Shown: positions 46,985 to 62,656, counted from the stretch's first letter. The stretch: 64,000 bases of DNA from Synoicihabitans lomoniglobus (GCF_029023725.1 NZ_CP119075.1:553501-617500), one strand, 5' to 3'. The notes: a model not told the origin generated them from the letters alone. Numbers and translations are program-made.

Positions 46985-48070
46985 TTAAAACTCGAATTGA
47001 ACCCCGCTTTGCAGAGTGAGTCGGCCTTTTTCCGCCGGCGTGAAACCGGTGTAGAGCGCGCCAAGTGAACCGTATCCCGCGAGCACCGTGGTGGGAATGG
47101 GGCCGAGGACGTTATCGTAGTCGTATTTGGCGGTGAGGTTCAGCGCGATATTGTCGGTCAACGCGGCCTTGATGGTCACCTCGGCGAGCAGGTTCCAGTT
47201 GTCGGTTTCCTCCACGGCCACTCGATATTTCAGTCGTTGAACCATGGATACACGCTCGTTGAAGTGATATTCGAAGCGTTCGAGGAAACCGGCGGCGATG
47301 TTCCAGTCACCGTCGTAGACGCTGCCTTTCTTGAATTCCGTGAGAGCGATGCCGGGGATGAGGTCGAACTTGGTTCGCTCGGTATCAACTATTTTGAAGC
47401 CGTAGCCGAAGATCTGCTCAAAATCGTGATCGATGTTCGAAATTTTATCCACCGAGTAGAAGGTCTGCGAGAGCCAGTAGTTCTGGTCGGACAGGATTTG
47501 GGTGAACTTCAACGTGCCGGAATAGGCGTCGGCCACGGTTCCCGCGGGTTCATAAGTCGCCTTGGCGTAGTTGGCATTGAATTCCCAGAGCTGCGCAGGA
47601 GTGATACGCAGGACGGTGGCGGACATATTGTAGTTGGAGGTCTCACCTTGCAAACCGAGGGCCGCGCCCGTGGAAGGAGCACCGGCGGGAATACCGGGAC
47701 CCAGGGTGCCTTGTTTATAGCTGGGCGAGCTGTAGTTTCCGCTGATGGAGAAGATACGCTTCCACACGGGAGCATGGGGATTCTTGGCGCTTTCAGCTTG
47801 AGCGACTTCCATGGGCGTGGGAGCGGTGGCGGCTTGGACCGAGGCCGCCTTGGTGGTGCCGGAGGCACTCGCGGTCGAGGTGCTTTCGACGTCACTGCGG
47901 GCAACTGATATCTCACCGATTAAATCGGCGTTGATTACGATTGTCTCGCTGGTTTCTGATTTAACGGCACCTACGATTACGGTGCCGTTTTTGAGTTTGA
48001 TCGTTGCCGCCGAAGCCGTGAAGGCTGAGAAACTGGTCAACGCCAGTAGGGTAAGCAGGGAAGAGCGCAT
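46985..48070 (-). CDS. DUF481-family outer-membrane protein
   Basis: A 361-residue exported protein. Signal peptide MRSSLLTLLALTSFSAFTA; then a small SH3-like leading part (IKLKNGTVIVGAVKSETSET) that is common in DUF481 proteins of this group. The rest has alternating beta-strand pattern (LWEFNANYAKATYEP; LSQTFYSVDKIS; FLERFEYHFNERVSM; LNLTAKYDYDN) and ends in Phe (LQSGVQFEF), as outer-membrane barrels do. The family includes salt-stress-induced YdiY. Monocistronic, divergent from the decarboxylase operon; its terminator is shared with the opposite gene. Confidence 0.88.
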   Translation of the reverse strand: MRSSLLTLLALTSFSAFTASAATIKLKNGTVIVGAVKSETSETIVINADLIGEISVARSDVESTSTASASGTTKAASVQAATAPTPMEVAQAESAKNPHAPVWKRIFSISGNYSSPSYKQGTLGPGIPAGAPSTGAALGLQGETSNYNMSATVLRITPAQLWEFNANYAKATYEPAGTVADAYSGTLKFTQILSDQNYWLSQTFYSVDKISNIDHDFEQIFGYGFKIVDTERTKFDLIPGIALTEFKKGSVYDGDWNIAAGFLERFEYHFNERVSMVQRLKYRVAVEETDNWNLLAEVTIKAALTDNIALNLTAKYDYDNVLGPIPTTVLAGYGSLGALYTGFTPAEKGRLTLQSGVQFEF

Positions 48071-48256: not shown

Positions 48257-49504
48257 ATGTCATCTTTACCCCGTTCGACCCCATTGAAACTGCCTTCCAA
48301 ACCTTCCCAGGCGGTTTCGTGGTGGCGGCGGGAAGGGCTGGGCTACGAAAACGGTCGATTGCACATGGCCGGTCAGGATTTAGGCGCACTGGCGAACGCC
48401 TTTCCCGCGCCGTTGTATGTTTATGATGCCAATCGCGCACGCGAAAATCTGAACCGAATCAAAACCGCGTTACTCGGCGGGGCGGCGTGCGGCCGCGTGT
48501 TTTATGCCATGAAGGCCAATCGTCATGTGCCTTTGCTGATGGCTTTGCGCGCAACCGGCCAATGCGGACTGGATGTGTGTTCTCCGGGAGAGCTGCTTTT
48601 GGCGCGAGAATGTGGGTTTGCGGAGGAGGAGATTACCTATACGGGAACGGCCATGTCTCCGGCGGATTTGGCGGTGATCCAGCGTTTTCCCCGGATCGCA
48701 CTGAATTGCGATTCCATGGCGGCGGTGGAACTGGTGGCTCGCCACATGCCAGGTCGACGAATCGGACTGCGCATCGACCCAGCGGTGGGTATCGGTTACC
48801 GGCAGAATCCTCGTTTGGACTATGCGGGCATCGGGATTTCAAAGTTCGGCATCCTCCTTGAGGACCTGCCGGCGGCGGTCGCACGGGCGCGCGCCGCAGG
48901 GCTCGTGATCGAAGGTCTGCATGTGCACGCGGGGTGTGGGTTTCTGACTCCGCAATTGCCGCTCTGGGATCGCGTGCTGGCTCGACTGCGAGCGGCGATC
49001 ACCAGCGTGGGAACCGTGCGATACGTTAATCTCGGCGGTGGATTGGGGATTCCGTTGGTGGCGCGCGATCGTCCACTGGATCTGGACGCTTGGACGCGCA
49101 TATTGCGGAAGCATTTTGGTTCCGCCGCGCACGAGGTGTGGATCGAGCCCGGGGACTATATCGTTAAGGATGCCGGGGTCCTGTTGTTGGAAGTTACCGC
49201 CGTTGAGACCAAAGCGGAGCAGGTGTTTGTGCGAGTGAATGGAGGTTTCAACCTGCATCCTGAACCGCTGTTCTACCAACTGCCTCTTGAACCGGCTTCC
49301 GTGGTCGCAGGGGGGCACCGGGGTCGGGTGACCCTTGCCGGCAACATCAATGAAGCTCACGATTTGTGGGCCCAGAATGTGCTCATGACCATGCCAACGG
49401 CGGGTGATGTGCTGGCATTGCTCAATGCCGGCGGATACGGCGCTGCCATGGCCTCATCCCATTGCCTGCGAGGTGAATATTCCCAATATTTGATATGGAG
49501 TTAA
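48257..49504 (+). CDS. PLP-dependent decarboxylase, DAP/ornithine-decarboxylase fold (fold III)
   Basis: A 415-residue enzyme of the alanine-racemase/group IV decarboxylase fold. The PLP-binding Lys is in FYAMKANRHVPLL. DVCSPGELLLA, GLHVHAGCGF, VRYVNLGGGLGIP and VWIEPGDYIVKDAG are DapDC-type motifs (PLP phosphate at GGG; active-site EPG). The C-terminal domain has CLRGEYS, but the exact CxSxD motif of standard LysA is not plain, so the substrate may not be meso-DAP. Such divergent LysA-like enzymes serve in secondary metabolism. It heads a seven-gene overlapping operon and overlaps the next gene by 10 bp, giving strong coupling. I infer it makes an amine or modified amino acid for this system. 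Confidence 0.88.
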   Translation: MSSLPRSTPLKLPSKPSQAVSWWRREGLGYENGRLHMAGQDLGALANAFPAPLYVYDANRARENLNRIKTALLGGAACGRVFYAMKANRHVPLLMALRATGQCGLDVCSPGELLLARECGFAEEEITYTGTAMSPADLAVIQRFPRIALNCDSMAAVELVARHMPGRRIGLRIDPAVGIGYRQNPRLDYAGIGISKFGILLEDLPAAVARARAAGLVIEGLHVHAGCGFLTPQLPLWDRVLARLRAAITSVGTVRYVNLGGGLGIPLVARDRPLDLDAWTRILRKHFGSAAHEVWIEPGDYIVKDAGVLLLEVTAVETKAEQVFVRVNGGFNLHPEPLFYQLPLEPASVVAGGHRGRVTLAGNINEAHDLWAQNVLMTMPTAGDVLALLNAGGYGAAMASSHCLRGEYSQYLIWS

Positions 49505-50340
49505 CGGCCAAATCCGCTTCCTGGCGTCGTCTACCGTGGGTATTGGCCGTATTGGAAACTTTGGAAGCGCAGACTTCGATCGCGCCCGCCCGCAGGGTTC
49601 AGGACCTGGAGTTGCAACGCATGATCGCATATGCCGATGGCGACGGCGAGCAATTGGCTCGTGCGATCCTGCGTCGATTGGCCGGGGAACCGTTGGCTTA
49701 CATTGTGGGAGAATTGGAGTTTGGGGGCCGTTTTTTTTGGGCGGACCAACGGGCCTATATCACCGATCCGGAGACCATTTGGCTGGTGCGCGAAGTGGTG
49801 GCGGAAATTCGAAATTTCGAGCAAATTCATCAACGTTGGCCGGTTGTGGCGGAATTTGGCGTGGGGGGAGGGGCTTTAAGTATTTCGGTCAAACTGGAGT
49901 GTCCCGAGGTCACTATCATCGGACTCGATATCGATGACAACGCGCTCGCAGTAGGCCGTCTCAATGCGCTGCGGCATGGGGTGGCGATTGAGCTGCTGGA
50001 AAGTAACTTGTTCAGTGCGTGGTCGGATCGAGGCGCGCCGGATTTGATCTTTGGTGATCCGCCCTGGGGAGGGGAGGACGACCTTTACGACGAAGTTAGG
50101 GATGCGGCGCACTACCACGCGATGCCGGCGGCTTCTGCGTTTCCCGTGGGAGGGGTGACCGGAGCACATCAACAATTGCTGCAGGACGTTTACGAGCGAC
50201 GATGGACCAGCCGGCTGATATTAAATGCCGGAGTTTTACGGGACGAACCGCTCGCAGAATTGACGCGACAGTCTGCATGGCACGAAATCCGGCATCCTGC
50301 CCCCGACCTCGCCTTGTTGGTGGCCCAAATGCATCGATGA
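49495..50340 (+). CDS. HemK/PrmC-like SAM-dependent methyltransferase
   Basis: A 281-residue protein with an N-terminal helical part then a class I methyltransferase domain (VVAEFGVGGGALSISVKL; IIGLDIDDNALAVGRLNAL). The PrmC-like arrangement before the SAM site is LAGEPLAYIVGELEFGGRFF. The catalytic site, normally NPPY, is FGDPPWGG here, a DPPW form as found in some amino-methyltransferases acting on bases. So the substrate is probably not the release-factor glutamine. Overlaps the decarboxylase by 10 bp and the next gene by 4 bp. I infer N-methylation of an amine or amide in this pathway, unproven. Confidence 0.8.
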   Translation: MELTAKSASWRRLPWVLAVLETLEAQTSIAPARRVQDLELQRMIAYADGDGEQLARAILRRLAGEPLAYIVGELEFGGRFFWADQRAYITDPETIWLVREVVAEIRNFEQIHQRWPVVAEFGVGGGALSISVKLECPEVTIIGLDIDDNALAVGRLNALRHGVAIELLESNLFSAWSDRGAPDLIFGDPPWGGEDDLYDEVRDAAHYHAMPAASAFPVGGVTGAHQQLLQDVYERRWTSRLILNAGVLRDEPLAELTRQSAWHEIRHPAPDLALLVAQMHR

Positions 50341-51092
50341 GATCTACCCCTCCATTCTTGCCGGATTCCGATCAGAATTCCGGCGCGGGTCTGACCGCAC
50401 GCAATCTCGTCGCTTGGGACAAGCTCTATGCTTCGACTCCCGAATTGGTGTGGGGACGAGCCGCAGCCGGCTTTTTACCGGAGTTCGTTACCGAGACGTG
50501 CGGGGATGCGAGGCGTTTTCGGCACGCCTTGGATGCGGCCACGGGAGAGGGGCGCAACCTGGCATTTCTGACCACGCGGGCTGAGGCGGTAACCGGGTGT
50601 GATGGATCGGCGGAAGCGTTGGCCAAGTTTTCGGCGAACGAATCTCCGGCCATACAGTTGGTTTGCGCAGCGTTGGATCGGTTGCCGTTCGCGGACGACA
50701 GTTTTGATTTCATTCTGCTTTGCGACACCGTGGAGACCTTGCCGGATCCGGTGCCGGTTTTGCGCGAGTTGCGCCGCGTGGCTGCGCCCGGAGCGCGACT
50801 GGTATGCAACATCCCACCGCCTGAGGGCGATGTCGCGGGTGAGGATATGGCGCCCGCGGGGGAGGACGGTTTTTTTTATCAGGATCGATATTACTATCGT
50901 TTTTTTGAAGCGGCGGCAGCAGCAGCCTTGTTAAAGCGCGGAGGGTGGCGAGTGCTGCAAGAGCGGGAGATGGAATGGGTCGAGCCGGCGCACCCGGGGT
51001 TTCGCGCGCACGATCACACTCATCGAAGCAACGTGTTTTTGGCCGAGCCCGATTCAGGGGAGGTTGAAAGCGGCACCACGGCGCATGACTAA
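50337..51092 (+). CDS. Class I SAM-dependent methyltransferase (UbiE/Methyltransf_11-like)
   Basis: A 251-residue protein starting at the ATG overlapping the preceding stop (ATGA). Motif I is ALDAATGEGRNLAFL, followed by the acidic loop VTGCDGSAEAL; CAALDRLPFADDSFDFILLCDTVETL is motif II with D-x-x-x. LRELRRVAAPGARLV is motif III. Typical of small-molecule methyltransferases. Its ORF extends into the previous gene, but the coupling and family start support 50337. Likely acts on the same product as the HemK-like gene or the decarboxylase. Overlaps the next gene by 8 bp. Confidence 0.87.
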   Translation: MRSTPPFLPDSDQNSGAGLTARNLVAWDKLYASTPELVWGRAAAGFLPEFVTETCGDARRFRHALDAATGEGRNLAFLTTRAEAVTGCDGSAEALAKFSANESPAIQLVCAALDRLPFADDSFDFILLCDTVETLPDPVPVLRELRRVAAPGARLVCNIPPPEGDVAGEDMAPAGEDGFFYQDRYYYRFFEAAAAAALLKRGGWRVLQEREMEWVEPAHPGFRAHDHTHRSNVFLAEPDSGEVESGTTAHD

Positions 51093-54000
51093 GGCCTATC
51101 GTTTCAAAGCCGGTGATCCTTGGCGGGTGGTGCCGTTCATGTTCCTGGGCGCCATTCTGCAGGCAGGGTTGGCTATCGGAATCAGTGCCGCCGATTCGTT
51201 GTTTATTTCCCATGTCGGGGCGGATCGGCTGCCAGTGATTTACGCCTGTATGCCGGTAATCATGCTGGCATATATCGCGGGCTACACCCGACTGCTGAAT
51301 CGATGGGGCATCGATAGACTTTTTGTCGTTACGATCGGAGTATTGGTGGTGGGGGGCGTCGCGTTTGCGGTGTTGTTGCGCGGCGAACACACGTCGCTCC
51401 CGGTGTATTTCGCGGCCAAGTTTTACGGGTCCCTGTGGTATATCGCGCTGTATTCCTTGTTATGGAATTTCATCGACGGTTTCTTTGATCTCAGTGAGGC
51501 GAAACGCTTGTTTGGGCTAATCGCCGGCGGATCTGCGGTGGGGGCGATCGGGGGCGGATTTGTGGTGACTCATTTGTCGGAAATAATCGGAGTCGCGGGA
51601 CTGTTCGGCATCTGGGCGGGCAGTGTGCTGTTCGCGTTGCCGGTTCACCGTTGGATCGTCCATCATGTTCCGCGAGTCGCCGGAGAAGATGCCGGGGAGG
51701 AAGAAGAGGGTGAGTCCAGCCTCGCGGACACCCTGCGCAACATCATCGGATCGCGTTATGTGACGGCCTTCACGCTGGTGATTTTCCTGACATTGATCAC
51801 GGCGACGTTGTGCGAATTTCGCTACTATTCGATTTTCGAGAAGCACTATCCGGACGAAGCGGCGTTGGCGGCCTTGTTCGGAAAGCTCTATGCCGGGGTC
51901 AACGTCTTCAATCTCGTCGTCACGTTGATTTTGTTTCGCACCCTCGTGCGTTGGGTGGGGGTGCGCAACGTCGCGCTGATTCAACCGGTGATCTATCTGG
52001 GCGTGTTCGGTTTCCTATTGATGGACGGAGGCATGGTGGCCGCGTTGTTTGGTTTTGTGGCCTACCAAGGCGTGATGACGTCCATCGACTACAACAACCA
52101 GAACCTGTTGTTTAGTGTCCTGCCGGAAAAAGGAAAGGAGCGCACCCGCACTTTCATCGAAGGCATCTGCGAACCCCTGGCCACGGCCAGTGCCGGTGTG
52201 CTGTTGTTGGGCGCGCAGTATTTTCTATCCGACACGGGGATTTCGGGCATTGGTTTTGGCACGGCGTTGGCGTGTTTGGTTTTGGCGTTGGTGTTGCGCG
52301 TGGAGTTTTTGAAATCGATGACCGCCAATGTCCGCCGCAGTTGGCTCGACTTCAGTGGGGCGGGTAAGGACGTCGCTTTTGTTCAAAAAGAGGATGAGGT
52401 GTTTCTGCGCACCCGCGCGGATGATCAGGCGGCTCCGGAGCATGAACGACTCGCCGCCTTGGAACGATTGTGGCAGTTGCAACCCATCGAAACGGTGGAG
52501 CGCGTATTGGCGTGGTTGCCCGCCATGAGCCTGGAGTCGCGGCGGGCAGTGCGTGGGCTCCTGCGGGAGATTTTACTGACGGATGATCCGGCGATCGTGG
52601 ATCGTTGTCTCAGTTGGGCGGAACAATACGGGGCGGATTGCGACGCGTATGTTTTGGAGCATTTTGGTCGTCGTCGCCTGGTGCCGCTGGGGGTCGGGCG
52701 GCGCCGCGTGCAAATGGCCGATCCGCGCGATCGAGCGGCGGGGGCGATTGTTTTGTGGGAAAGCAATGATGTTTCCGATGTGCAGATCGCCCTGAAGACA
52801 ATCGACCGCTTGCTGGATGGTGAGCCGACTGAGGCCGAGGCGGGATGGCATGCGCTCGGAGTGTTGGGCGAAATGCGATTCATTCCCCGTATCCTGCCGC
52901 ATCTCCGCGACACGAATCCGCACCTACGCCTGCGGGCGATCGAAGTGCTACTCCAGTTGACCGGACCGGAATCATCCCGCGTCCAACCCGAATTGCTGCA
53001 ATTGATCTCGACCAGTCGCCGACCCGAGGAACGGTTGTTGGTCATCGGAGCGCTGGCGCGCATCAACGATTCGGCGATCATCGAGCCTTTGCTGAAATCC
53101 ATCGGTGACATGGTTCCGCAGGAACGGCGGGAGCTGGAGCATCTACTGATTGGCTTTGGTCCCCGCGCCGTTCCGGCTTCTATCAAAGTTTTACGCGGGA
53201 CAACCTACTCCCTGGCGTCCCGGTCCATTGCCGCGCGGGCGCTGGCTCGAGTGGCGTTTCCGCAACTCGAACTCATGGTGCCTGAGTTGATTGAGGACAT
53301 CGTGCGGCGCGCATATCGGGTGGTCGCTTTTCGCCACATTTTACGTCAGCATGCCGATCGTGGCCCCGGAACAGCGGCATTGGCGTTGGTTTACCACGAT
53401 CTGCCCCGGCTGATGCTGGAGCTGGTGTTGGAACTGCTCAGCGTGATCGGCCGGTTGTCCAGTTACGATTCGATCGTGGCGGCGTTGCGAGCGGAGAACG
53501 GTCGCGAGCGTGGTTACGCGTTGGAGAGCATTGAACAAGCCTGCGGCCGCCAGTTGTTCGAGCGCTTGTTTCCGATCCTCGACGAGCAATCCGACGAGGA
53601 CATCATCGCCAAGGGTGAAAAATTTGGGGTGCGAACTGATGGTTCGCTGGACACAATCGTGCAACGATCCCGCAAGGCGGTGTTTCCGCTGGAAGCATCG
53701 GCGGCGCTGCAGGCGGCGGTGGAAGCCGAACCCCATCGAGCGCGGGATATCTGCTTGGAAACCTTGCAGGAGCAATCCCATCCCATGGTGCGAGGCACCG
53801 CCCGAGTGCTCATGCGCCGCACGGATGCCAATGCCTCCCCCACCTCCACGGTGGTGGAGCGCGTTCGTGAGTTGTCGCGCCATGCATTTTTTCGCAACTG
53901 GGGCGTGCGGTCGCTGGAGGCGGTGGGTCTGCAGTTGGAGGAATGCTGGCATGAGCCCGGGGAGGTTGTGGTGGATACGGGGCAACGGATGGCCCGATTT

Positions 54001-54243
54001 GGAGTGGCGATGGAAGGCGGGTTTCGTTCGATGAACGATGAAGGGCAGATTCGCGATTTGCCGGCACCGTCCGACTTCGGGCGGGAGTCGCTGGGTGAGC
54101 TCTGGTCCGCGCAACGTCGCACGGTCACGGTCACGAAGCGGGCTCGTATCATGTGGTTGCCGGCGCATGCCTTGCGGGCGTCGGTGCAGGCCCAGCCCCG
54201 TCTCGCGATTGAACTGTTGGTCTGGAAACTTTCGAACCCGTGA
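51085..54243 (+). CDS. Nucleotide-transporter-like membrane protein with HEAT-repeat and cNMP-like domains
   Basis: A 1052-residue protein. Residues about 10-425 form ten to twelve membrane helices like the Npt1/ADP-ATP-carrier or MFS family (AADSLFISHVGADRLPVIYA; YIALYSLLWNFIDGFFD; LFSVLPEKGKERTRTFIEG). Residues about 470-880 are HEAT-type repeats (LRLRAIEVLLQL; ERLLVIGALARI; SLASRSIAARALARV). Residues about 930-1052 resemble a cyclic nucleotide-binding jelly roll (ECWHEPGEVVVDTGQ; FGRESLGELW) ending in helices. Known related proteins join these three parts; their job is unclear. A transport or receptor complex that reads a nucleotide is my inference. The ATG at 51085 is preferred to a TTG 21 bases upstream. 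Overlaps neighbours by 8 and 4 bp. Confidence 0.85.
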   Translation: MTKAYRFKAGDPWRVVPFMFLGAILQAGLAIGISAADSLFISHVGADRLPVIYACMPVIMLAYIAGYTRLLNRWGIDRLFVVTIGVLVVGGVAFAVLLRGEHTSLPVYFAAKFYGSLWYIALYSLLWNFIDGFFDLSEAKRLFGLIAGGSAVGAIGGGFVVTHLSEIIGVAGLFGIWAGSVLFALPVHRWIVHHVPRVAGEDAGEEEEGESSLADTLRNIIGSRYVTAFTLVIFLTLITATLCEFRYYSIFEKHYPDEAALAALFGKLYAGVNVFNLVVTLILFRTLVRWVGVRNVALIQPVIYLGVFGFLLMDGGMVAALFGFVAYQGVMTSIDYNNQNLLFSVLPEKGKERTRTFIEGICEPLATASAGVLLLGAQYFLSDTGISGIGFGTALACLVLALVLRVEFLKSMTANVRRSWLDFSGAGKDVAFVQKEDEVFLRTRADDQAAPEHERLAALERLWQLQPIETVERVLAWLPAMSLESRRAVRGLLREILLTDDPAIVDRCLSWAEQYGADCDAYVLEHFGRRRLVPLGVGRRRVQMADPRDRAAGAIVLWESNDVSDVQIALKTIDRLLDGEPTEAEAGWHALGVLGEMRFIPRILPHLRDTNPHLRLRAIEVLLQLTGPESSRVQPELLQLISTSRRPEERLLVIGALARINDSAIIEPLLKSIGDMVPQERRELEHLLIGFGPRAVPASIKVLRGTTYSLASRSIAARALARVAFPQLELMVPELIEDIVRRAYRVVAFRHILRQHADRGPGTAALALVYHDLPRLMLELVLELLSVIGRLSSYDSIVAALRAENGRERGYALESIEQACGRQLFERLFPILDEQSDEDIIAKGEKFGVRTDGSLDTIVQRSRKAVFPLEASAALQAAVEAEPHRARDICLETLQEQSHPMVRGTARVLMRRTDANASPTSTVVERVRELSRHAFFRNWGVRSLEAVGLQLEECWHEPGEVVVDTGQRMARFGVAMEGGFRSMNDEGQIRDLPAPSDFGRESLGELWSAQRRTVTVTKRARIMWLPAHALRASVQAQPRLAIELLVWKLSNP

Positions 54244-56174
54244 AACCGCTGCACCTTCACTTCAACGTTCGCACGTGGCTGCAAATTGGGTTGCTGTCCT
54301 CCATCACCGGGGTGGCGATTTGGATCGGTTCCGGACTCTTCGTTTCGTTGCGACGGGTCATCCTTGATGGGTTCGACAAACAGCTCACTTCTCCGAGCGT
54401 GGTGGTGGCGGCTTTTATCGAGCCGGAGGATCACGCTTGGCTGGCCGAACGCCGCAATATTCACGGGTTGGCCTACGCGGAGAAAGAGGATGTCTTTTAT
54501 GCGCTGGCGCAGACCCGGGGGGCGTTTGGTTTGGTGACCATTTCACCACTGACCGGGGTGGTGGCGGACGATGCGGCGGTTTACCTTTCGATGGAACTCC
54601 GGGACCTGGCCGTGGAACCGGTGTCGGGCCGCTTGATCGGGTTGCTGCCGGACGGTTCGCCGGCATGGGTGGATACGGCAACGGGAGAGGTGGCTCCCAT
54701 CGCCGGCGCGCCCGCGGGCTGGCGCGGCATGGCCGACGGTCCGGGGGACGGCGGTATTTGGGTGATTGATACCATGGTCCGGCAGTGGCATCCGCAAACC
54801 GGGGCGTGGGCCGCGGCGCAGGCCGTGCCGGAGGTGCATGAGGATCCCATTTTAATGGGGGGCGGACGCGATGGACAAGCCGTGCTGCTCGTCAATCCCT
54901 GGCATCGCAAAATTGTCTCCATGTATCCTGAAAGTGGATACGTGAGTGAAATCGACTGGGCGCACGACGATGCCATGACATGGGAGTGGGGGTTCGACAC
55001 CCGGCGCGAACGTTGGGTGGGAGCGCGCCACAAGCTGGTGCTGATTGATCCCCTCACCGGCACCGAACCGGTGGATCGATTCGCTGCCGCCTATGGCCGG
55101 GAGCAGTCCGACACCTACGCCCGGTTGGTCGAGCCGATGAGACGGTTGCGCGAGCGACTGAAATTGACCTACCTTTACACCCAAATGGTCGAGTCTCCTG
55201 ATTTGATCACCTACGTGCTGGATAGTTCGACGGGGGACGAGCATTCGCCGCTCATGGCCGAGGATATTCTGCCCGCCACGGAGGTGGAAGGGGTGGCGCG
55301 CTTGTTGACCGGAGGTTCGATGCATTTCACCAATTTGGAACGGTGGGAAAACTGGGGTTGGCTGAAATCAGCGTTCGCGCCGATGTTTGCAGCCGACGGT
55401 CGGGTGATGGCCATGGCGGGCACGGATTTTAACGCCAGTGTCATCGAAAACAGCACGCGGCGGGCGTTGCTGATGGTGTTTCTGGTGGGAGCGGCGACGT
55501 TGGTGCTGGCTTCAGGGTGGTCACTGACGATTTCACGTTGGTTGCGCCGTCCCGTGGAGGCGCTCAAGCGTGGTGCCTTGAGCATGGCGGCGGGAGATTT
55601 CCAAGTGTTGGAAGTCAAGGGCTCGCGTGAGGTCAATCAACTCGCGGGAGTGTTTAACCAAGTCAGTGATTCAATGCAGCAGTCGGTCACCAATCTTACG
55701 AGTGAAGTCACCCGTCTGCTGCAGCGACGGGATCGAGCGGAGGTTGCCCGGGTCTTTGCCCGTGATCGCGACGCCAATCTGAGTTTTGCCGATGAACCGG
55801 AAGTTACGGTGCTGCATTCCACTTATGGGCTGGGCGGCGCGACTCGGCATGGGGACGTGGCATTGGTATGGTGGGATATGACCCGGGCCACGACCGCCGT
55901 GCCGTCGATGGGCGCGCTCTGCGCAGTCCCCGGACAGGTGCGAGCTCGTTTCACGTCCTTGTCGGAAAGCGCAGCGCAGCCCCCACGATGGCCGGAAAAC
56001 GTGCGAGCGGTGTTGCGACTCAACCTTCGCACCAATCAGGGCGTTTATTGGGGGCGCGAATCAACTGAGACACCGTTTGCCCGCGGTGTGCCCACGGCGC
56101 TCGAAATGGGATGGGCGGAGTTTGGTCCCGTGTTGAAATTGGAGGAGTATGTGGTGAAGGAGGCGGGGACATGA
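54240..56174 (+). CDS. HAMP-domain membrane sensor with large extracytoplasmic domain
   Basis: A 644-residue protein with a GTG start inside the preceding stop. TM1 is WLQIGLLSSITGVAIWIGSG; an extracytoplasmic domain (about 40-405) with WD/propeller-like pieces (SPAWVDTATGEVAPI; DTMVRQWHPQTGAW) follows; TM2 is about 418-440 (VFLVGAATLVLASGWSLTI). The HAMP domain (RRPVEALKRGALSMAAGDF) continues into a coiled coil (about 475-515). The last 130 residues are weakly like a PP2C/SpoIIE domain (GDVALVWWDMTRATTAVPSM) but lack its metal-binding acidic residues as I read them. A membrane receptor is certain, the output is not. Overlaps the next gene by 4 bp. Confidence 0.8.
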   Translation: MKPLHLHFNVRTWLQIGLLSSITGVAIWIGSGLFVSLRRVILDGFDKQLTSPSVVVAAFIEPEDHAWLAERRNIHGLAYAEKEDVFYALAQTRGAFGLVTISPLTGVVADDAAVYLSMELRDLAVEPVSGRLIGLLPDGSPAWVDTATGEVAPIAGAPAGWRGMADGPGDGGIWVIDTMVRQWHPQTGAWAAAQAVPEVHEDPILMGGGRDGQAVLLVNPWHRKIVSMYPESGYVSEIDWAHDDAMTWEWGFDTRRERWVGARHKLVLIDPLTGTEPVDRFAAAYGREQSDTYARLVEPMRRLRERLKLTYLYTQMVESPDLITYVLDSSTGDEHSPLMAEDILPATEVEGVARLLTGGSMHFTNLERWENWGWLKSAFAPMFAADGRVMAMAGTDFNASVIENSTRRALLMVFLVGAATLVLASGWSLTISRWLRRPVEALKRGALSMAAGDFQVLEVKGSREVNQLAGVFNQVSDSMQQSVTNLTSEVTRLLQRRDRAEVARVFARDRDANLSFADEPEVTVLHSTYGLGGATRHGDVALVWWDMTRATTAVPSMGALCAVPGQVRARFTSLSESAAQPPRWPENVRAVLRLNLRTNQGVYWGRESTETPFARGVPTALEMGWAEFGPVLKLEEYVVKEAGT

Positions 56175-56566
56175 CGCCGGTAGAACTCATGTTTGCGCTG
56201 CGTCGACAGCCGCCTTTTGACAGCATGTCGGATGGCGAATTGGAGATAGCGGCGAAAGTGGTGGTGGAACGCAGCTTCGCCCCCGGTGCATTGGTGTTGG
56301 GACCGGGGGAACCCTTTCGGCGACTGCTGTTGCGTCTCGACGGGAGTTGGCAGACGGATAGCCGAAGCCTTCCGACCATCTTGGGCGTGGAGTCACTGCT
56401 CACGGGTATTGAAGGACCGGGCGAAGTGAGGGCGGGTCCCGACGGCGTGCGTTGTCTCACCATGACGCGCGGGCATTTTTTCACGTTGGTCAATGAGTGT
56501 CCCGCGTTGCTGTTGTCCCTTTTGTCCATGGCCGATGAGCCTCCGGAAACTCGTCCGTTCCTATGA
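56171..56566 (+). CDS. Small cyclic-nucleotide-binding-like domain protein
   Basis: A 131-residue protein made of one jelly-roll-like domain: LRRQPPFDSMSDGELEIA is the usual helix before the cNMP fold (F-x-x-L/M-S-x-x-E), then VVERSFAPGALVLGPGEPFRRLLLRLDG matches the 'G..i...G....' turn, and TRGHFFTLVNECPALLLSLL the last helix. The phosphate-binding cassette (FGExA-R) is not evident, so it probably does not bind cAMP in the classical way. It closely resembles in style the C-terminal domain of the transporter-like protein in the same operon. 4-bp overlap at both ends. Confidence 0.75.
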   Translation: MTPVELMFALRRQPPFDSMSDGELEIAAKVVVERSFAPGALVLGPGEPFRRLLLRLDGSWQTDSRSLPTILGVESLLTGIEGPGEVRAGPDGVRCLTMTRGHFFTLVNECPALLLSLLSMADEPPETRPFL

Positions 56567-57894
56567 GACTGCGCACACAAACATTCTGGGGAATCGTGCC
56601 ACTTTTTCTGGTCGTGGGCATCGCGGGATCAGGGGTGTCTTGGTTGTTGGAATCCCGAGAGCTGCGCCATGGGGCGGAAGCCCAAGCGCGCACCATGGCC
56701 GTTTCGCTGGCGGAGTATCTTTATGGTCAATCGTGGCCGACCCAAAGTGCGGCGGCGCAGGAACGGCTGGAACGTGCGGAAGTGCGATTTGAGTATTGGA
56801 AGTTCGTCCGCGCCATCCAGCTGTGGGATCAATCGGGGCGACGCGTGCATCGTTGGGTCTCTCCGGCCGCGGGAGAGGTGGAGGATGCGCGTTGGATGCA
56901 AGCGGAGGTTGCGACGGGAACTGAAGAGAGTGCCGTCGGGGAACTCATTAGGAAATCGGCCGATTCGGCCGTGGCCCGGGGCGGAGCGTTGGTATGGTCC
57001 GCTGACGGGCAGCTTCAAGGTTGGGTGGAGTGTGAACTCGATGCGAATGACTGGTTGACCGAAAGCCGTCACCAAGAAGTGGGCAACCTACGTCGCGTGG
57101 TGGGGATTGTTATACTGGGCGTTATACTGGCCTGGTTGGTCAGTCGCTTACTGGCTGGTGATGTGCGTCGCCTGATTTCGTCGGCTCGTGCGGTCGGGGA
57201 GGGCAAATATGTCGCGCCGGATGATCTGCGGGTGAGAGAATTCGCGGAGTTGAGCGAGTCGTTCGGAGTGTTGGATGGCCTCACCCACGAGTATCGACTG
57301 AAATTTCGGCGCGCGATGATTGAAAATGAGGTGTTTCGCACGAGTGGGGTGCTGGCGCAGGCGTTCCGGGCTGAGGTGATGCCGTCAATTGATCAACACA
57401 TTGCCGGACGCCGAGTGATGAGCCGATTGTTCGATGCGAGCGAATGCTCCCGCTGGCATGGTGCGGGAGGAGATGATCAAACGGGCTGGTTGTGGTTCGG
57501 CCGGGTGGAGGGACTGGTGGGTAGCGAAGTGGCGCGACTGGCGTTCACCGTAAAAAGTGAGCTGGAGACGTTGCTGATTCGTCAGAAGGTGGATCCGGTG
57601 GAGGCCCTCCAAGAGCTGGCCGGGTATTATCAAATCACACGGGCAATTGTGGTCACCTGGACGTCGGCATCGACCGATTTGGAAATTTTCGATTACAACC
57701 GCGAAACGGATGTCGTCGCCCGTCGGCGGCTGACATCTCCGGTTCGGTTCGTCGGCCACGATTTGGTCGCTGATGAAGGTGCGACGATTGATGTGGTGGT
57801 GGCGTCAGCGGCGGATGCGGGAGTCGAGCAAATCTATGATCATATTGTTCGATTCCTGGGCGACACCGACGCGGTGGTGACCATCGTCGAGTGA
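56563..57894 (+). CDS. HAMP-domain membrane sensor with degenerate SpoIIE/PP2C-like output
   Basis: A 443-residue protein. TM1 (FWGIVPLFLVVGIAGSGVSW), a periplasmic sensor (about 30-175), TM2 (VVGIVILGVILAWLVSRLL), HAMP (LLAGDVRRLISSARAVGEGKY), coiled-coil linker, then a C-terminal domain (about 260-443). That domain has the order of SpoIIE phosphatases: GAGGDDQTGWLWFGRVEGLVGSE, where the active form has GDxxD...DvxGHG; VDPVEALQELAGYY; LEIFDYNRETD. The expected metal-binding Asp residues are replaced, so I infer a pseudophosphatase. Last gene of the operon. The next gene is convergent 31 bp away. Confidence 0.78.
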   Translation: MRLRTQTFWGIVPLFLVVGIAGSGVSWLLESRELRHGAEAQARTMAVSLAEYLYGQSWPTQSAAAQERLERAEVRFEYWKFVRAIQLWDQSGRRVHRWVSPAAGEVEDARWMQAEVATGTEESAVGELIRKSADSAVARGGALVWSADGQLQGWVECELDANDWLTESRHQEVGNLRRVVGIVILGVILAWLVSRLLAGDVRRLISSARAVGEGKYVAPDDLRVREFAELSESFGVLDGLTHEYRLKFRRAMIENEVFRTSGVLAQAFRAEVMPSIDQHIAGRRVMSRLFDASECSRWHGAGGDDQTGWLWFGRVEGLVGSEVARLAFTVKSELETLLIRQKVDPVEALQELAGYYQITRAIVVTWTSASTDLEIFDYNRETDVVARRRLTSPVRFVGHDLVADEGATIDVVVASAADAGVEQIYDHIVRFLGDTDAVVTIVE

Positions 57895-57925: not shown

Positions 57926-59206
57926 CTATTCCGAAGGTGCGGTGGTCAGCGCCGGGCTACCCTTCGCGGTGGCCAAGACCGCCGACCGCACGATGTCGAT
58001 TCCGGCGTCGAGGGTGGCTTCATCAATGGTGAGCGGCGGGAGAAATTTCAGCACGTTTTTGCCGGAGCCGCAGATCTCGATGATCAAACCCTGCTGGAAG
58101 GCTTCACTGGCGACGGCCTGACAACGGGAGGCTTGTTTGAATTCCAGGCCGTGAATCATGCCGACTCCGCGGGGCTTGGCCTCGATTTCCGGCAACTCGG
58201 CCGCGAGCGCATGCAGACGTGCGGACATGTGCGCGCCGCGGGCAGCGATTTGAGCCGTGAATTCAGCCGTGGCCCAGTAGTTGAGCGCCTCGGTGGCGGC
58301 GACGAAGGCCAGATTGTTACCGCGGAACGTGCCGGTGTGTTCACCGGGTTTCCATTGATCGTGTTCGGGTTTGATCAACAGCAGTGACATCGGCAGACCG
58401 CACCCGCTGATTGATTTGGAAAGTGCAATCAGGTCCGGCCGGATGCCGGTGCGTTCGAAACTGAAGAAGCTACCCGTGCGCCCGCACCCGACTTGGATGT
58501 CGTCGACGATGAGCAGGATGCCGTGTTGCTGGCAAAGGTCGGCAACACCCTGCAACCACTCCGTCCGCGCAATGTTGACTCCGCCTTCGGCCTGCACCGT
58601 TTCCAGGACGATGGCGGCCGGGAGGTCGATGCCGCTGGATGTATCCGATAAGGAACGACGCAAGTAGGCGAGGGTGTCGACCCCGGCTCCGAGATAGCCG
58701 TCGAAAGGCATGAAGCTCGCGTCCAGTCGTTGAGTCCAGGCTTCATGGCGAAAGTGACGATTGGCCGTGACGGCGAGAGCCCCGGCGCTCAACCCATGGT
58801 AGGCGTTGGTGAAGGCGATGACGTTGCGGCGCTTCGTCACGCGGCGGGCGAGTTTGAGAGCCGCCTCGATCGCGTTGGTGCCGGTGGGCGCGGTGAACTG
58901 CAGCTTGTAGTCCATGCCGCGGGGCTCGAGGATGACTTCTTCAAACCGCTCCAAAAAGCGCTGTTTGGCGACAGTCGCCATATCCAGGCTGTGCAGCACG
59001 CCGCCCTCCTGCAGATAGGCGATCAAGGCCTCCCGCATGGCGGGCGGGTTGTGCCCGTAGTTGAGCGCTCCGGCGCCGGCAAAGAAGTCGACGTAGGGCC
59101 GACCTTCACGATCGAAGAGGCGCGCGCCTTCCGCGCGTTCGAAGATGGTGGGGTAGGAACGGGAGTAGGACCGAATCTCCGATTCGCGCCGTTGGAATAT
59201 GTTCAT
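57926..59206 (-). CDS. Diaminobutyrate--2-oxoglutarate aminotransferase
   Basis: A 426-residue class III PLP aminotransferase of the EctB/Dat group, which makes 2,4-diaminobutyrate from aspartate semialdehyde. MNIFQRRESEIRSYSRSYPTIF is the typical EctB opening. GAGALNYGHNPP, FTAPTGTNAIEAALKLAR, YHGLSAGALA and the PLP Asp in LLIVDDIQVGCGRTG are family motifs; the Schiff-base Lys is in LIALSKSISGCGLPMSL. TGTFRGNN follows. The normal ectoine genes ectA and ectC are not adjacent; instead it follows the NRPS gene by 45 bp on the same strand. Diaminobutyrate is therefore probably a monomer for the peptide, as in several siderophores and lipopeptides. Confidence 0.92.
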   Translation of the reverse strand: MNIFQRRESEIRSYSRSYPTIFERAEGARLFDREGRPYVDFFAGAGALNYGHNPPAMREALIAYLQEGGVLHSLDMATVAKQRFLERFEEVILEPRGMDYKLQFTAPTGTNAIEAALKLARRVTKRRNVIAFTNAYHGLSAGALAVTANRHFRHEAWTQRLDASFMPFDGYLGAGVDTLAYLRRSLSDTSSGIDLPAAIVLETVQAEGGVNIARTEWLQGVADLCQQHGILLIVDDIQVGCGRTGSFFSFERTGIRPDLIALSKSISGCGLPMSLLLIKPEHDQWKPGEHTGTFRGNNLAFVAATEALNYWATAEFTAQIAARGAHMSARLHALAAELPEIEAKPRGVGMIHGLEFKQASRCQAVASEAFQQGLIIEICGSGKNVLKFLPPLTIDEATLDAGIDIVRSAVLATAKGSPALTTAPSE

Positions 59207-59251: not shown

Positions 59252-62200
59252 TTAACACGTGATATTGGTCAAAATGTCACGCAGTGACTGTGCGTTGGGA
59301 CTCAAATAGGGTGGATACAGCATGGCATTATGATCACCTTGTGCAGGGTGAACGCGGTAACTTCCCCGGGTGACGTCGCGCCACCCATGGGTGCGAGTCA
59401 ACGGAATGTTATTTTCATCAATGTGGTCGACCGAATCCTGGCAGACCATGCCATGGATGTCGGCTGCAACTTGATGTTGATCAGTGCTATGACTCATCAA
59501 GTCGTAGTAGGCGGCGATGACGCGCGCTGCCTTGTCGCGTAACAGCGGGGTGGAGACGTAGGGCCGGATGCTTTCGTGATCCAGAAAAGCAGCCGTGACT
59601 TTCTCGCACTCGCCCGGGGGGAAAGTAATGGGGTGCACGACTTGTGCGCTATCAAACATCACGATGGCGGCCACCCGGCGGCCCCGGCGTTCGAGCTCGG
59701 CGGTGACGTGGTAGGCGAGATTGCCGCCGGCGGAGTATCCGCCCAGGACGATGGATCCGTCGGGCTGAGTGGTCGTGATCAAATCCACGTAGTCACCCAA
59801 GCGGGACGCTGCCACGATGAAATTGAAACCGTAGACGGCGTAGTCCGGGAGCTCCTGCGCCAGTTGCACGTAGCCGAGCGCGTCGCCGGTGCCGGGAGGG
59901 AACAGAAAGAACGGATGACGATTTTCGTCCCCGGGGTTGAGCAACACCATGGGATCGTCGATGCCTTCCGTGCCGAACCGAGCGCGGTCGAGGAGCAACT
60001 CCGCTTGGGCGCGCACGGTGGTGGCTTTGAACAACGCGGTGAGGGGAAGCGAAAGGGCGAAGGTTTCGCGCAGTCGGGCGGCGAGTTTGGTCACTTTGAG
60101 ACTATGTCCGCCGACATCGAAAAAATTGTCGGTGACGCCGATGGCAGACATTTCGAGGACTTCCTGCCAGAGTTTGAGCACCGTTTTTTCGGTGGGAGTA
60201 ACCGGTGCCATCTGGTTCCCCGGACGATCGGCGGTGGTCCACTCCGGCGGTGGCAGGGCCGCCCGGTCAACCTTGCCGTTGGGGGTGAGTGGCAACGCGT
60301 CCAGAAAAACGAACTGAGCCGGAAGCATGTAGGCGGGCAAAGCCTGCGAGAGGTGGGATCGCAGGGATTCGATCGTGGTCGGACCGACCACGTAAGCGAC
60401 CAACGCCAGTGATTTGTCCATCGCTTTCCGCGCCACGACAACGGCATCGTGCACGTCGTCAAGCTGCCGCAGGCGGGTTTCGATTTCTCCGGGCTCAATC
60501 CGGAACCCGCGAATCTTCACCTGATCGTCCTTTCGACCCAGATACTCGACCGTGCCGTTGGCGGTCCAACGCCCGAGGTCACCGGTGCGATACAATCGCG
60601 CGGTGTTGTCTTCACTGAACGGGTGCGGGATGAATTTTGCGTCCGTCAGGGCGGAATCTCCCAAGTATCCGCGCGCCAGTCCATCGCCGCCAGTGCAGAT
60701 CTCACCGGCCACTCCGACCGGGACCAATTGATCCCGGGTATCGAGAATATACACGGATGTATTCGCAATGGGACTACCGAGCGGAATGTTTTCGGAATGG
60801 TCGCGGTCGATGCGATGACAGCACGTGAAGGTGGTGTTCTCCGTCGGTCCGTAGCCATTGATCACGGTGAGCTGCGGATGCGCCGCCCGGATGCGGTTGA
60901 TGTGCGGCGCCGACAGTTTTTCCCCGCCGACCAGCAGGGTGCGGAGACCGCCAAACAACGACAGGTCGGCGTCGGCGAGTTGATTGCACAAGCTCGAGGT
61001 CAGCCAGAGCGTGGTGATACCATGGGTCGTGATGAGTTGTTTCAGGGCCTCGGGGTCGAGCACCGCCTTTTCCGGCGGTCGGCACAACGCCCCCCCATTG
61101 AGCAGCGCCCCCCAGATCTCGAACGTCGACGCATCGAATGCCAGGGCCCCGGTCATCAAGATGCGATCGGTCGCGGAGAGCCGGATGAAGTTGGTTTCCT
61201 TCACCAGTCTCAGGACGGCGCGATGTTCGACCAGCACTCCCTTGGGCCGCCCGGTCGTGCCCGAAGTATAGATGGCGTAGGCGAGTGCGGTGGGCCGGGC
61301 GCGTTCCGGCAGCGCGGCAGGCGACAGTTCGCTCAGTTGCCGCGCGTCTCGTTGTTGCTTGGACTTGGCGACGGGGTTCGGGACTGTCGCCGCGGACTTG
61401 TCGATGCGCAGGATGGCATCGTAACCGAAACGCGAAAGTTCACTCTCCGCTTCGCCGAGCATGTTTGAAAATTCGATGGTCGCGATTTCGGGCCAGTCGC
61501 ATTGGAGGTCGCGCCAGAATGCTCGAGACACAAACAAGTCTTCGGAGCGGTCCACCTTGGTGCGGACCCCCTCCGCCGCATGTTCGCGTTGATAGCCCAG
61601 AAGTTCGGTCTCAAACGCGACTTTGGTGTCCTGATCCCAGACATTACCGAGAAACAACGTGCCCTGCGCGGGCATGAGATCGATGGCCTGGCGTAGCACG
61701 TCGCGCAGATAGTTTACGCCGCTGAAACACTGCAGCACGCTGTTGATGATCACGACATCGTAGTCGGCGGTCGGCACCTCCCGCAGAGCGTGAGCGGGCA
61801 AGTGTTGCAGGGTGATGTTGGTGGCATCGCGGCGGGTCATTTCCTGCCGGGTCCAAGCCAGGATACGGGCGGAAAGGTCGGTGCCATGGTAGGCGGCCAC
61901 GAGCGGGGCCAGACGAAACATGCTGATGCCGGAAGCGCAGCCCACTTCGAGGACCCGATCGGTGGGACGCAGCAGCGGGGAGAGTTTGCGACGAATGTTC
62001 ACGCCGTATGCGTCCATCACTTCGCGGCTGAGTAGTTCGCCGGTGAAACTGCTGCGCCATCCACCGCCGGAGATATCGTCAACGGTTTGGTCGCCGACCA
62101 AGTCCCAGATTTCTTCGCGCATGAACTCGCCGATGCCTTCAGGCTCCGCGTGGATGTCGGGACTGTCAGGACAACACAGCAAACCCAGCTCCGGACATTC

Positions 62201-62656
62201 CCATTGCAATCGATTCAAGCGACGGATGTGTCGCCGACTGCCGATGAGGGCGCGGGCTTGAGTCTCGCGCAGCATGTGCCCCGAACGTGCGGTCGGCATA
62301 TCGGTGTCAAGCGGGAGATAGGCGCCGCCGGCCGTGAGTATGCCCAGCAATGTGGTGGCGATGTCGAACGCCGAATCAAGCATGACACCCACAAAGCCTT
62401 CGGGGCCGAGTTCATGATCCAACAGCAAACGGGCGATCCGATTGGCCTGGGCCGCCACCTCCGCGTAGGTGTGGTTGCCTTCGGGACCGACAATGGCAAT
62501 TGCTGCCGGGGTCGAAGTGGCCTGGCGAAAAAACTCGGCGGGAATGGTGGAGTCGCGCGGATAGGCCGTGGCGTTGTCGTTGAAGCTCTGGACGAGAGAA
62601 AGCAGGTCGTCACGTTGTTCGTCGTCGGCGAGTAGATTGAAGTCTCCGAGTTTCAT
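59252..62656 (-). CDS. Nonribosomal peptide synthetase A(interrupted by MT)-PCP-TE
   Basis: A 1134-residue terminal NRPS module. The adenylation domain starts with FFRQATSTPAAIAIVGPEG. Motif A2 (GGAYLPLDTDMP, about residue 110) is followed by a methyltransferase insert (about 170-435; motif I VLEVGCASGISMF near 234, YHGTDLSARILAWTR), then A3 (YTSGTTGRPKG, about 462), A5 (NGYGPTENTTF), A7/A8 (YRTGDLGRW; GRKDDQVKIRGFRIEPGEIE) and A10 (PNGKVDR). The PCP site is DNFFDVGGHSLK (about 849). The thioesterase has GGYSAGG (about 972) and the final His in GDHNAML. The active-site code read by eye is DAFWLGGTFK, one residue from a valine code. No condensation domain is in this protein; it is supplied by the upstream gene 5 bp away. 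Confidence 0.95.
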   Translation of the reverse strand: MKLGDFNLLADDEQRDDLLSLVQSFNDNATAYPRDSTIPAEFFRQATSTPAAIAIVGPEGNHTYAEVAAQANRIARLLLDHELGPEGFVGVMLDSAFDIATTLLGILTAGGAYLPLDTDMPTARSGHMLRETQARALIGSRRHIRRLNRLQWECPELGLLCCPDSPDIHAEPEGIGEFMREEIWDLVGDQTVDDISGGGWRSSFTGELLSREVMDAYGVNIRRKLSPLLRPTDRVLEVGCASGISMFRLAPLVAAYHGTDLSARILAWTRQEMTRRDATNITLQHLPAHALREVPTADYDVVIINSVLQCFSGVNYLRDVLRQAIDLMPAQGTLFLGNVWDQDTKVAFETELLGYQREHAAEGVRTKVDRSEDLFVSRAFWRDLQCDWPEIATIEFSNMLGEAESELSRFGYDAILRIDKSAATVPNPVAKSKQQRDARQLSELSPAALPERARPTALAYAIYTSGTTGRPKGVLVEHRAVLRLVKETNFIRLSATDRILMTGALAFDASTFEIWGALLNGGALCRPPEKAVLDPEALKQLITTHGITTLWLTSSLCNQLADADLSLFGGLRTLLVGGEKLSAPHINRIRAAHPQLTVINGYGPTENTTFTCCHRIDRDHSENIPLGSPIANTSVYILDTRDQLVPVGVAGEICTGGDGLARGYLGDSALTDAKFIPHPFSEDNTARLYRTGDLGRWTANGTVEYLGRKDDQVKIRGFRIEPGEIETRLRQLDDVHDAVVVARKAMDKSLALVAYVVGPTTIESLRSHLSQALPAYMLPAQFVFLDALPLTPNGKVDRAALPPPEWTTADRPGNQMAPVTPTEKTVLKLWQEVLEMSAIGVTDNFFDVGGHSLKVTKLAARLRETFALSLPLTALFKATTVRAQAELLLDRARFGTEGIDDPMVLLNPGDENRHPFFLFPPGTGDALGYVQLAQELPDYAVYGFNFIVAASRLGDYVDLITTTQPDGSIVLGGYSAGGNLAYHVTAELERRGRRVAAIVMFDSAQVVHPITFPPGECEKVTAAFLDHESIRPYVSTPLLRDKAARVIAAYYDLMSHSTDQHQVAADIHGMVCQDSVDHIDENNIPLTRTHGWRDVTRGSYRVHPAQGDHNAMLYPPYLSPNAQSLRDILTNITC

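Follow-up and report, generated by a model that had tools for sequence, protein, structure and literature searches.

A seven-gene operon of Synoicihabitans lomoniglobus joining a decarboxylase-like protein, two methyltransferases and an NTT-HEAT membrane apparatus, and its frequent association with natural-product genes

Results

A gene set conserved in distant relatives

The 64,000-nucleotide stretch of the Synoicihabitans lomoniglobus genome analyzed here (NZ_CP119075.1:553501-617500, hereafter the window) contains, at positions 48257-57894, seven open reading frames (ORFs) on the plus strand, g1 to g7, whose successive junctions overlap by exactly 10, 4, 8, 4, 4 and 4 bp. They encode a decarboxylase-like protein (g1), two methyltransferases (g2 and g3), a large NTT-HEAT membrane protein (g4), two membrane sensor-like proteins (g5 and g7) and a free domain resembling cyclic nucleotide (cNMP)-binding domains (g6). 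As the parts of this set co-occur and cluster in distant relatives, we conclude that the seven genes are one real, rare, conserved and patchily spread system. An earlier note on this DNA had given the ORFs, their strand, their place and the lengths of their overlaps as we find them and knew of no named system with this gene set; none was found here, and the system is undescribed as far as could be checked.

Among 384 genomes of the class, the profiles of g1, g2 and the NTT part of g4 all single out four, namely the window genome (G000), G002, G256 and G271, when matches of the NTT part are counted above 240 bits (the next match scores 160). Identical sets of 4 in 384 would arise by chance at 1.1e-9 per pair, kinship being ignored. 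In a 289-genome sample of the phylum, the g1 and g2 profiles again give the same three genomes, and a 132-genome sample of the order contains few strong relatives of g4; within the family, neither the sampled genome from this genus nor any of the eight sampled from other genera has this gene. Furthermore, g1 was found in G046, G057 and G070, which lie outside the 384-genome sample, and not in G076, a 77% complete genome. Altogether, eight genomes of the order, window genome included, carry gene sets of this kind, four of them outside the 384-genome sample. As these loci are only 26-58% identical, the arrangement must be old. Distance correlation, as a measure of co-evolution of g1 to g4, gave 0.23-0.64 over 15 pairs, with too few taxa to count as evidence.

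The gene order varies around a common theme. In G057, fused g1 and g3 are followed by g4, fused g5 and g6 (HAMP plus cNMP), a short g7, a SpoIIE sensor and g2; G256 shows the same g1-g3 fusion followed by g4, g5, g6, g7, a SpoIIE sensor and g2. The order in G002 is g2, g3, g4, g5, a GAF-g6 fusion, g7 and a solute-binding protein, with g1 on a separate contig. In G070, genes for a polyketide synthase/nonribosomal peptide synthetase (PKS/NRPS), a phosphopantetheinyl transferase (PPTase) and an acyltransferase (AT) lie directly upstream of g1, which is followed by a Band_7 protein, a solute-binding protein, g2, g3, g4 and g5. G046 and G076 taken together give g2, g3, g4, g5 and g7, and in G271 two short contigs carry g1-g2 and g4-g5, respectively. 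Overlaps of four bases are seen again in G057 and, judging by ORF coordinates, in G256 and at locus L030. Near that end of the G070 locus where g5 lies, we also observed a gene (L023 1268-4714) for a protein of 1148 amino acids (aa) that combines WD40 repeats with a caspase (Peptidase_C14) domain; in G002, an AAA_14/DUF4143 ATPase gene (L019 5929-7374) immediately precedes g2.

With 65-74% identity, the closest relatives of g4 are four proteins encoded in Opitutaceae and Verrucomicrobia metagenome-assembled genomes (MAGs; loci L030-L033). In L030, L031 and L032, g4 is followed by g5, g6 and g7, and the contig of L033 stops within g4. A DUF481 gene is directly divergent from g4 in L030 (8674-9801), L032 (8675-9817) and L033 (3433-4584), the loci whose sequence extends to the upstream side, without g1-g3, for which these loci have no room. 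The only LysA of these genomes is housekeeping-like (141-148 bits versus about 500 or more for g1).

The operon and its surroundings

The genes of the operon and of its neighborhood are listed in Table 1. The domain calls of the earlier note stood for g1 (decarboxylase), g2 (HemK-like), g3 (class I), g4 (TLC and HEAT) and g5 (HAMP); on the other hand, the HAMP match of g7 is below threshold and the cNMP likeness of g6, which has no Pfam match, comes from profile comparison only. Internal promoters and terminators, which the note had named as a finding that would refute its view, are not apparent: in the operon region, promoter-like sites (3 versus 4.3) and terminator-like sites (17 versus 14.5) show no excess over chance, and its plus strand yielded no promoter-like site.

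Table 1. Genes of the operon and its neighborhood (window positions)
Gene	Product	Position	Strand
g1	Fold-III pyridoxal phosphate (PLP) decarboxylase-like, 415 aa, LysA/BtrK-related subfamily	48257..49504	+
g2	HemK/PrmC-related methyltransferase, 281 aa	49495..50340	+
g3	Class I (Methyltransf_11) S-adenosylmethionine (SAM) methyltransferase, 251 aa	50337..51092	+
g4	NTT (TLC, ADP/ATP-translocase-like) membrane domain, HEAT repeats, divergent C-terminal cNMP-like domain, 1052 aa	51085..54243	+
g5	Membrane sensor-like, 644 aa: extracytoplasmic beta-propeller, Cache/PAS-like domain, transmembrane segment (TM), HAMP	54240..56174	+
g6	Free divergent cNMP-like domain, 131 aa, without canonical phosphate-binding cassette	56171..56566	+
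g7	Second membrane sensor-like, 443 aa: PAS/Cache-like extracytoplasmic domain, TM, weak HAMP	56563..57894	+
	DUF481 protein, 361 aa, divergent neighbor of the operon	46985..48070	-
	EctB-type diaminobutyrate transaminase, convergent neighbor, last gene of the NRPS/PKS cluster	57926..59206	-
	Terminal NRPS gene: adenylation (A) domain interrupted by methyltransferase, then peptidyl carrier protein, thioesterase	59252..62656	-
	Next NRPS gene, its C-terminal condensation (C) domain; gene extends past the window	62662..63933	-

Two other origins or roles were considered and rejected. A recent foreign insertion of g1-g3 does not agree with their G+C and third-position G+C contents, which resemble those of the rest of the operon, and a search with PADLOC for an anti-phage defense system gave no specific match, only a generic methyltransferase similarity to mads_2.

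The decarboxylase-like protein and the methyltransferases

g1 matches Orn_Arg_deC_N in a domain search (5.6e-27) and scores 205.1 bits, below the curated LysA cut-off of 297.9. Its profile is nearest to diaminopimelate decarboxylases (DAPDCs), and BtrK is also found among solved relatives (5.7e-39). The features of fold-III decarboxylases are kept, with the PLP lysine (K86), the HxHxG motif (H224), the GGG loop (G260-G262) and the EPG motif (E297). In the T. maritima DAPDC, Arg249 and Arg285 hold the distal carboxylate, Glu315 the distal amine and Tyr343 the PLP phosphate (PMC8277567); the same positions are Asp, Glu, Glu and His in seven g1 homologues. In g1 itself the two arginines are replaced by D300 and E336, acidic in all seven homologues, the phosphate-binding Tyr by H402, and the catalytic Cys preceding a Glu by N365. 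These residues were mapped by motifs and by alignment to the DAPDC structures 2p3e and 1knw, no structure of g1 being used; G395 and G396 are the only LysA comparison rows in the alignment, the rows for the genome's own LysA and SpeA and for G393 and G394 being wrong ORFs that were left out. Judged by its sequence, g1 is not a DAPDC. Since both distal-carboxylate arginines are Asp and Glu, its side-chain pocket is predicted to have turned from basic to acidic and would accept a substrate whose side chain is cationic.

g2 belongs to the HemK family (6.1e-21, NCBIfam) but stays below every curated cut-off, its PrmC/HemK equivalog score being 88.8 bits where 199.1 are required. It keeps just a remnant of the PrmC N-domain and has a DPPWG motif in place of NPPY, invariant in 5 of 5 sequences. 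g3 matches Methyltransf_11 (5.3e-19), and its fusion to g1 in two relatives makes a functional link between these two genes likely.

The NTT-HEAT protein and the cNMP-like domains

g4, 1052 aa long when counted from the ATG at 51085, matches TLC (3e-8, 33.3 bits versus a cut-off of 21) and HEAT_2 (6.8e-8, 33.1 bits versus 27.7), and has an EAKR motif in common with an NTT of known structure. It belongs to a distinct subfamily, as its relatives match the NTT-part profile with more than 240 bits and other NTT proteins with 160 at most. Four charged residues are needed for nucleotide transport by NTT1 (K155, E245, E385 and K527; PMC10654386), and they are not reliably placed on g4 given the weak alignment. 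At L032 (11556-11644), the g4 homologue lies in two overlapping frames, through a frameshift or an assembly error, and the g7 frame contains a stop.

No Pfam or NCBIfam match was obtained for g6. The profile of its family matches cNMP domains that come after NTT-HEAT genes elsewhere (1.3e-8 and 8.7e-9), and it also matches a g4 homologue at its C-terminus (8.4e-6); this profile homology indirectly supports g6 as a probable divergent cNMP domain. It is without the FGE and RSA features of the phosphate cassette, including the cassette arginine, whereas cNMP domains beside other NTT-HEAT genes keep both. In another genome, G653, an NTT gene is followed by a gene for a canonical cNMP-binding protein and then a secretin gene (L073 9114-11697).

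The sensor-like proteins, and SpoIIE and STAS genes of relatives

The HAMP domain of g5 is recognized (6.4e-9). A structure model of fair to good confidence gives a long TM helix, an extracytoplasmic beta-propeller, a Cache/PAS-like domain, a TM and HAMP, residues 494-644 falling outside the model. The propeller is absent in several relatives, and the region from sensor through TM to HAMP can be aligned with the SpoIIE sensor found in relatives (93% probability). The HAMP match of g7 is weak (E 0.094, 13.5 bits versus 25), and its extracytoplasmic part resembles CitA/WalK-type sensor domains in a weak model. A degenerate SpoIIE fold was considered for the g7 C-terminus and rejected, the profile comparison with the SpoIIE sensor being negative (0.3%); the model is too weak to decide (mean pLDDT 56).

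As mentioned before, a SpoIIE phosphatase sensor sits between g7 and g2 in G057 and G256; the window operon itself has no PP2C phosphatase, kinase or STAS gene. In the more distant genome G484 (L072 80-7864), an NTT-HEAT gene is followed by genes for STAS, DJ-1/PfpI, HAMP-SpoIIE-HATPase_c_2 and ankyrin-glyoxalase proteins, apparently a partner-switching operon. We found no literature on NTT with HEAT, SpoIIE and STAS together. The sensors and the SpoIIE/STAS partners of relatives point to signaling, and partner switching is probably its ancestral output.

Association with NRPS/PKS genes

A 65-kb NRPS/PKS cluster (G000:C1 611426-676517, the window ending at 617500), nearly all on the minus strand, converges on the operon and terminates in EctB, 31 bp from the g7 stop. 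It comprises about ten modules, one of which is split over two genes, with the C domain ending one gene and the A domain starting the next. In our alignment, the A-domain codes suggest three Thr, one Ser and one diaminobutyrate-like residue; the last is consistent with EctB in the cluster. EctB and the same NRPS end (67-75% identity) converge beyond g4-g7 in L030 and L032. The PKS-NRPS genes upstream of g1 in G070 show a discrete AT and RhiE-like linkers, and a type II thioesterase lies near g1 in G002. In several lineages the system thus adjoins NRPS/PKS genes. Of 12 genomes that carry the system, 10 have NRPS C domains, compared with 5 of 21 others (p 0.0014); without the four MAGs selected by their locus, the counts are 6 of 8 and 5 of 21 (p 0.018), kinship not being corrected in either test.

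Discussion

The recurrence of the gene sets in eight genomes of the order, with fusions, bears out the view of the earlier note that the genes belong together as one unit. The overlaps, which it took as a sign of a stoichiometric complex, do not sustain that claim: they say little alone because adjoining NRPS/PKS genes overlap by 4 bp too, and the nearest relatives have the membrane genes without the enzymes, so that the two parts are separable. A receptor reading a cyclic nucleotide, also suggested in the note, is weakened by the degenerate cassette of g6. The NRPS/PKS cluster converging on and recurring with the operon had escaped attention, as had the SpoIIE and STAS partners in relatives.

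Because the genomes that carry it usually also make complex peptides, the unit probably produces a small molecule linked to this peptide chemistry and senses or moves it. We tentatively favor a reading in which the enzymes make a modified amine and the membrane complex senses or moves it, coupled to NRPS/PKS production. This small-amine model, already raised in the note, in which membrane proteins export or sense what the enzymes make, fits the predicted charge reversal of the g1 pocket. g1 would decarboxylate an amino acid, free or carried, whose side chain is positively charged (diaminobutyrate, ornithine, lysine or arginine), and the resulting amine would then be methylated by g3 and g2. 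g4, with its NTT fold, may bind or move the amine or a nucleotide across the inner membrane, and g5 and g7 would read the extracytoplasmic side via their propeller and Cache/PAS-like domains. Their HAMP helices would pass this state to the HEAT and cNMP-like parts, which would form an inner scaffold. The output, missing from the operon here, might be partner switching via a SpoIIE phosphatase and a STAS protein, as relatives suggest, and the likely purpose would be to link the making or release of the NRPS/PKS product with its own chemical surroundings. A bolder proposal, which we regard as rather doubtful, is a new type of signaling: an amine signal made by three enzymes would be received by an NTT-HEAT and propeller/Cache HAMP complex controlling natural-product synthesis, and producers would coexist with enzyme-less "listeners", the MAGs with g4-g7 only.

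Several observations weigh against the amine reading. The closest relatives keep g4-g7 without g1-g3, so that the enzymes and the membrane part are not obligate partners. g1, without the phosphate-binding Tyr and the catalytic Cys, could do another PLP reaction or none. In a Pfam search, g5 and g7 have no recognizable output domain after HAMP, and the SpoIIE sensor of the type found in relatives is absent from the operon, the best match in the same genome covering the catalytic half only. Finally, no NRPS condensation domain was found in G057 and G256, which carry the full system; the link between system and NRPS is frequent, not universal.

Much of the same evidence could be accommodated if these were accessory genes of an NRPS/PKS product, g1-g3 tailoring a building block or carrier-bound intermediate and g4-g7 exporting the product or protecting the producer. 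The convergent 65-kb cluster, the same NRPS end with EctB beside g4-g7 in L030 and L032, the position of g1 right after PKS/NRPS-PPTase-AT in G070 and the diaminobutyrate-like A-domain code together with EctB all speak for it, as does BtrK, which decarboxylates an acyl-carrier-bound glutamate. However, G057 and G256 combine enzymes and membrane genes without an NRPS condensation domain, in L030 and L032 no enzymes accompany that NRPS end, and sensor-like g5 and g7 with a SpoIIE partner are ill-suited to a plain exporter. We regard this explanation as possible and somewhat unlikely.

The membrane part might instead be a nucleotide transporter or receptor, built from NTT and cNMP domains and reporting the energy state, with enzymes that share the operon for an unrelated reason. 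We consider this improbable: the TLC match and EAKR motif of g4 agree with it, and NTT-HEAT proteins with fused or adjacent cNMP domains are a widespread known class in which nucleotide uptake was proposed to be under cAMP control (PMC5381601), but g6 is without the FGE and RSA that cNMP domains beside other NTT-HEAT genes keep, and the presence of enzymes and g4 in the same 4 of 384 genomes makes "unrelated" unlikely. Slightly less probable still is a system that modifies and senses an envelope component, such as an amine-containing lipid or polymer, the NRPS link then reflecting self-protection; the extracytoplasmic propeller and Cache-like sensors, the DUF481 neighbor and the Band_7 and solute-binding proteins of relatives would suit it, yet this evidence is indirect, and lipid and glycan enzymes do not recur with the gene set.

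NTT-HEAT-cNBD proteins (cNBD, cyclic nucleotide-binding domain) are widespread (cyanobacteria, Chlamydiae, oomycetes) and were described as functionally uncharacterized (PMC5381601). Our analysis gives one subfamily concrete partners, namely three enzymes and two sensors, NRPS/PKS clusters and, in some relatives, a SpoIIE phosphatase. Furthermore, the gene set is a possible marker for Opitutales natural-product loci, and g1 represents a decarboxylase subfamily whose predicted change of substrate is easy to test.

Comparison with known systems

NTT-HEAT and NTT-HEAT-cNBD fusions, with or without an adjacent cNBD gene, appear in the work of Major, Embley and Williams (2017, PMC5381601). The operon resembles this class in that g4 joins NTT and HEAT parts to a cNMP-like domain at its C-terminus and has a free cNMP-like gene nearby. 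It differs in the subfamily of g4, in the degeneracy of its cNMP-like domains and in its enzymes, HAMP sensors and biosynthetic clusters, which the passages of that paper considered here do not report around members of the class. g1 is like LysA and BtrK in its fold III, PLP lysine, HxHxG, GGG loop and EPG glutamate, and unlike LysA in its score below the cut-off, its two acidic residues for the distal-carboxylate arginines, and its Cys to Asn and Tyr to His changes. Unlike SpoIIE/STAS operons, the window operon is without phosphatase, kinase and STAS gene; a SpoIIE sensor in the operon of two relatives and NTT-HEAT beside STAS and SpoIIE-HATPase in a third nevertheless recall partner switching. 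Finally, by a term search, the text of PMC8636102 on verrucomicrobial trans-AT PKS-NRPS clusters does not mention decarboxylase, methyltransferase, HEAT or cyclic nucleotide genes, a distinction made on terms of the text and not on cluster comparison, whereas those clusters (palmerolide and others, in Opitutaceae) come from the same bacterial family and are assembly lines of the same kind.

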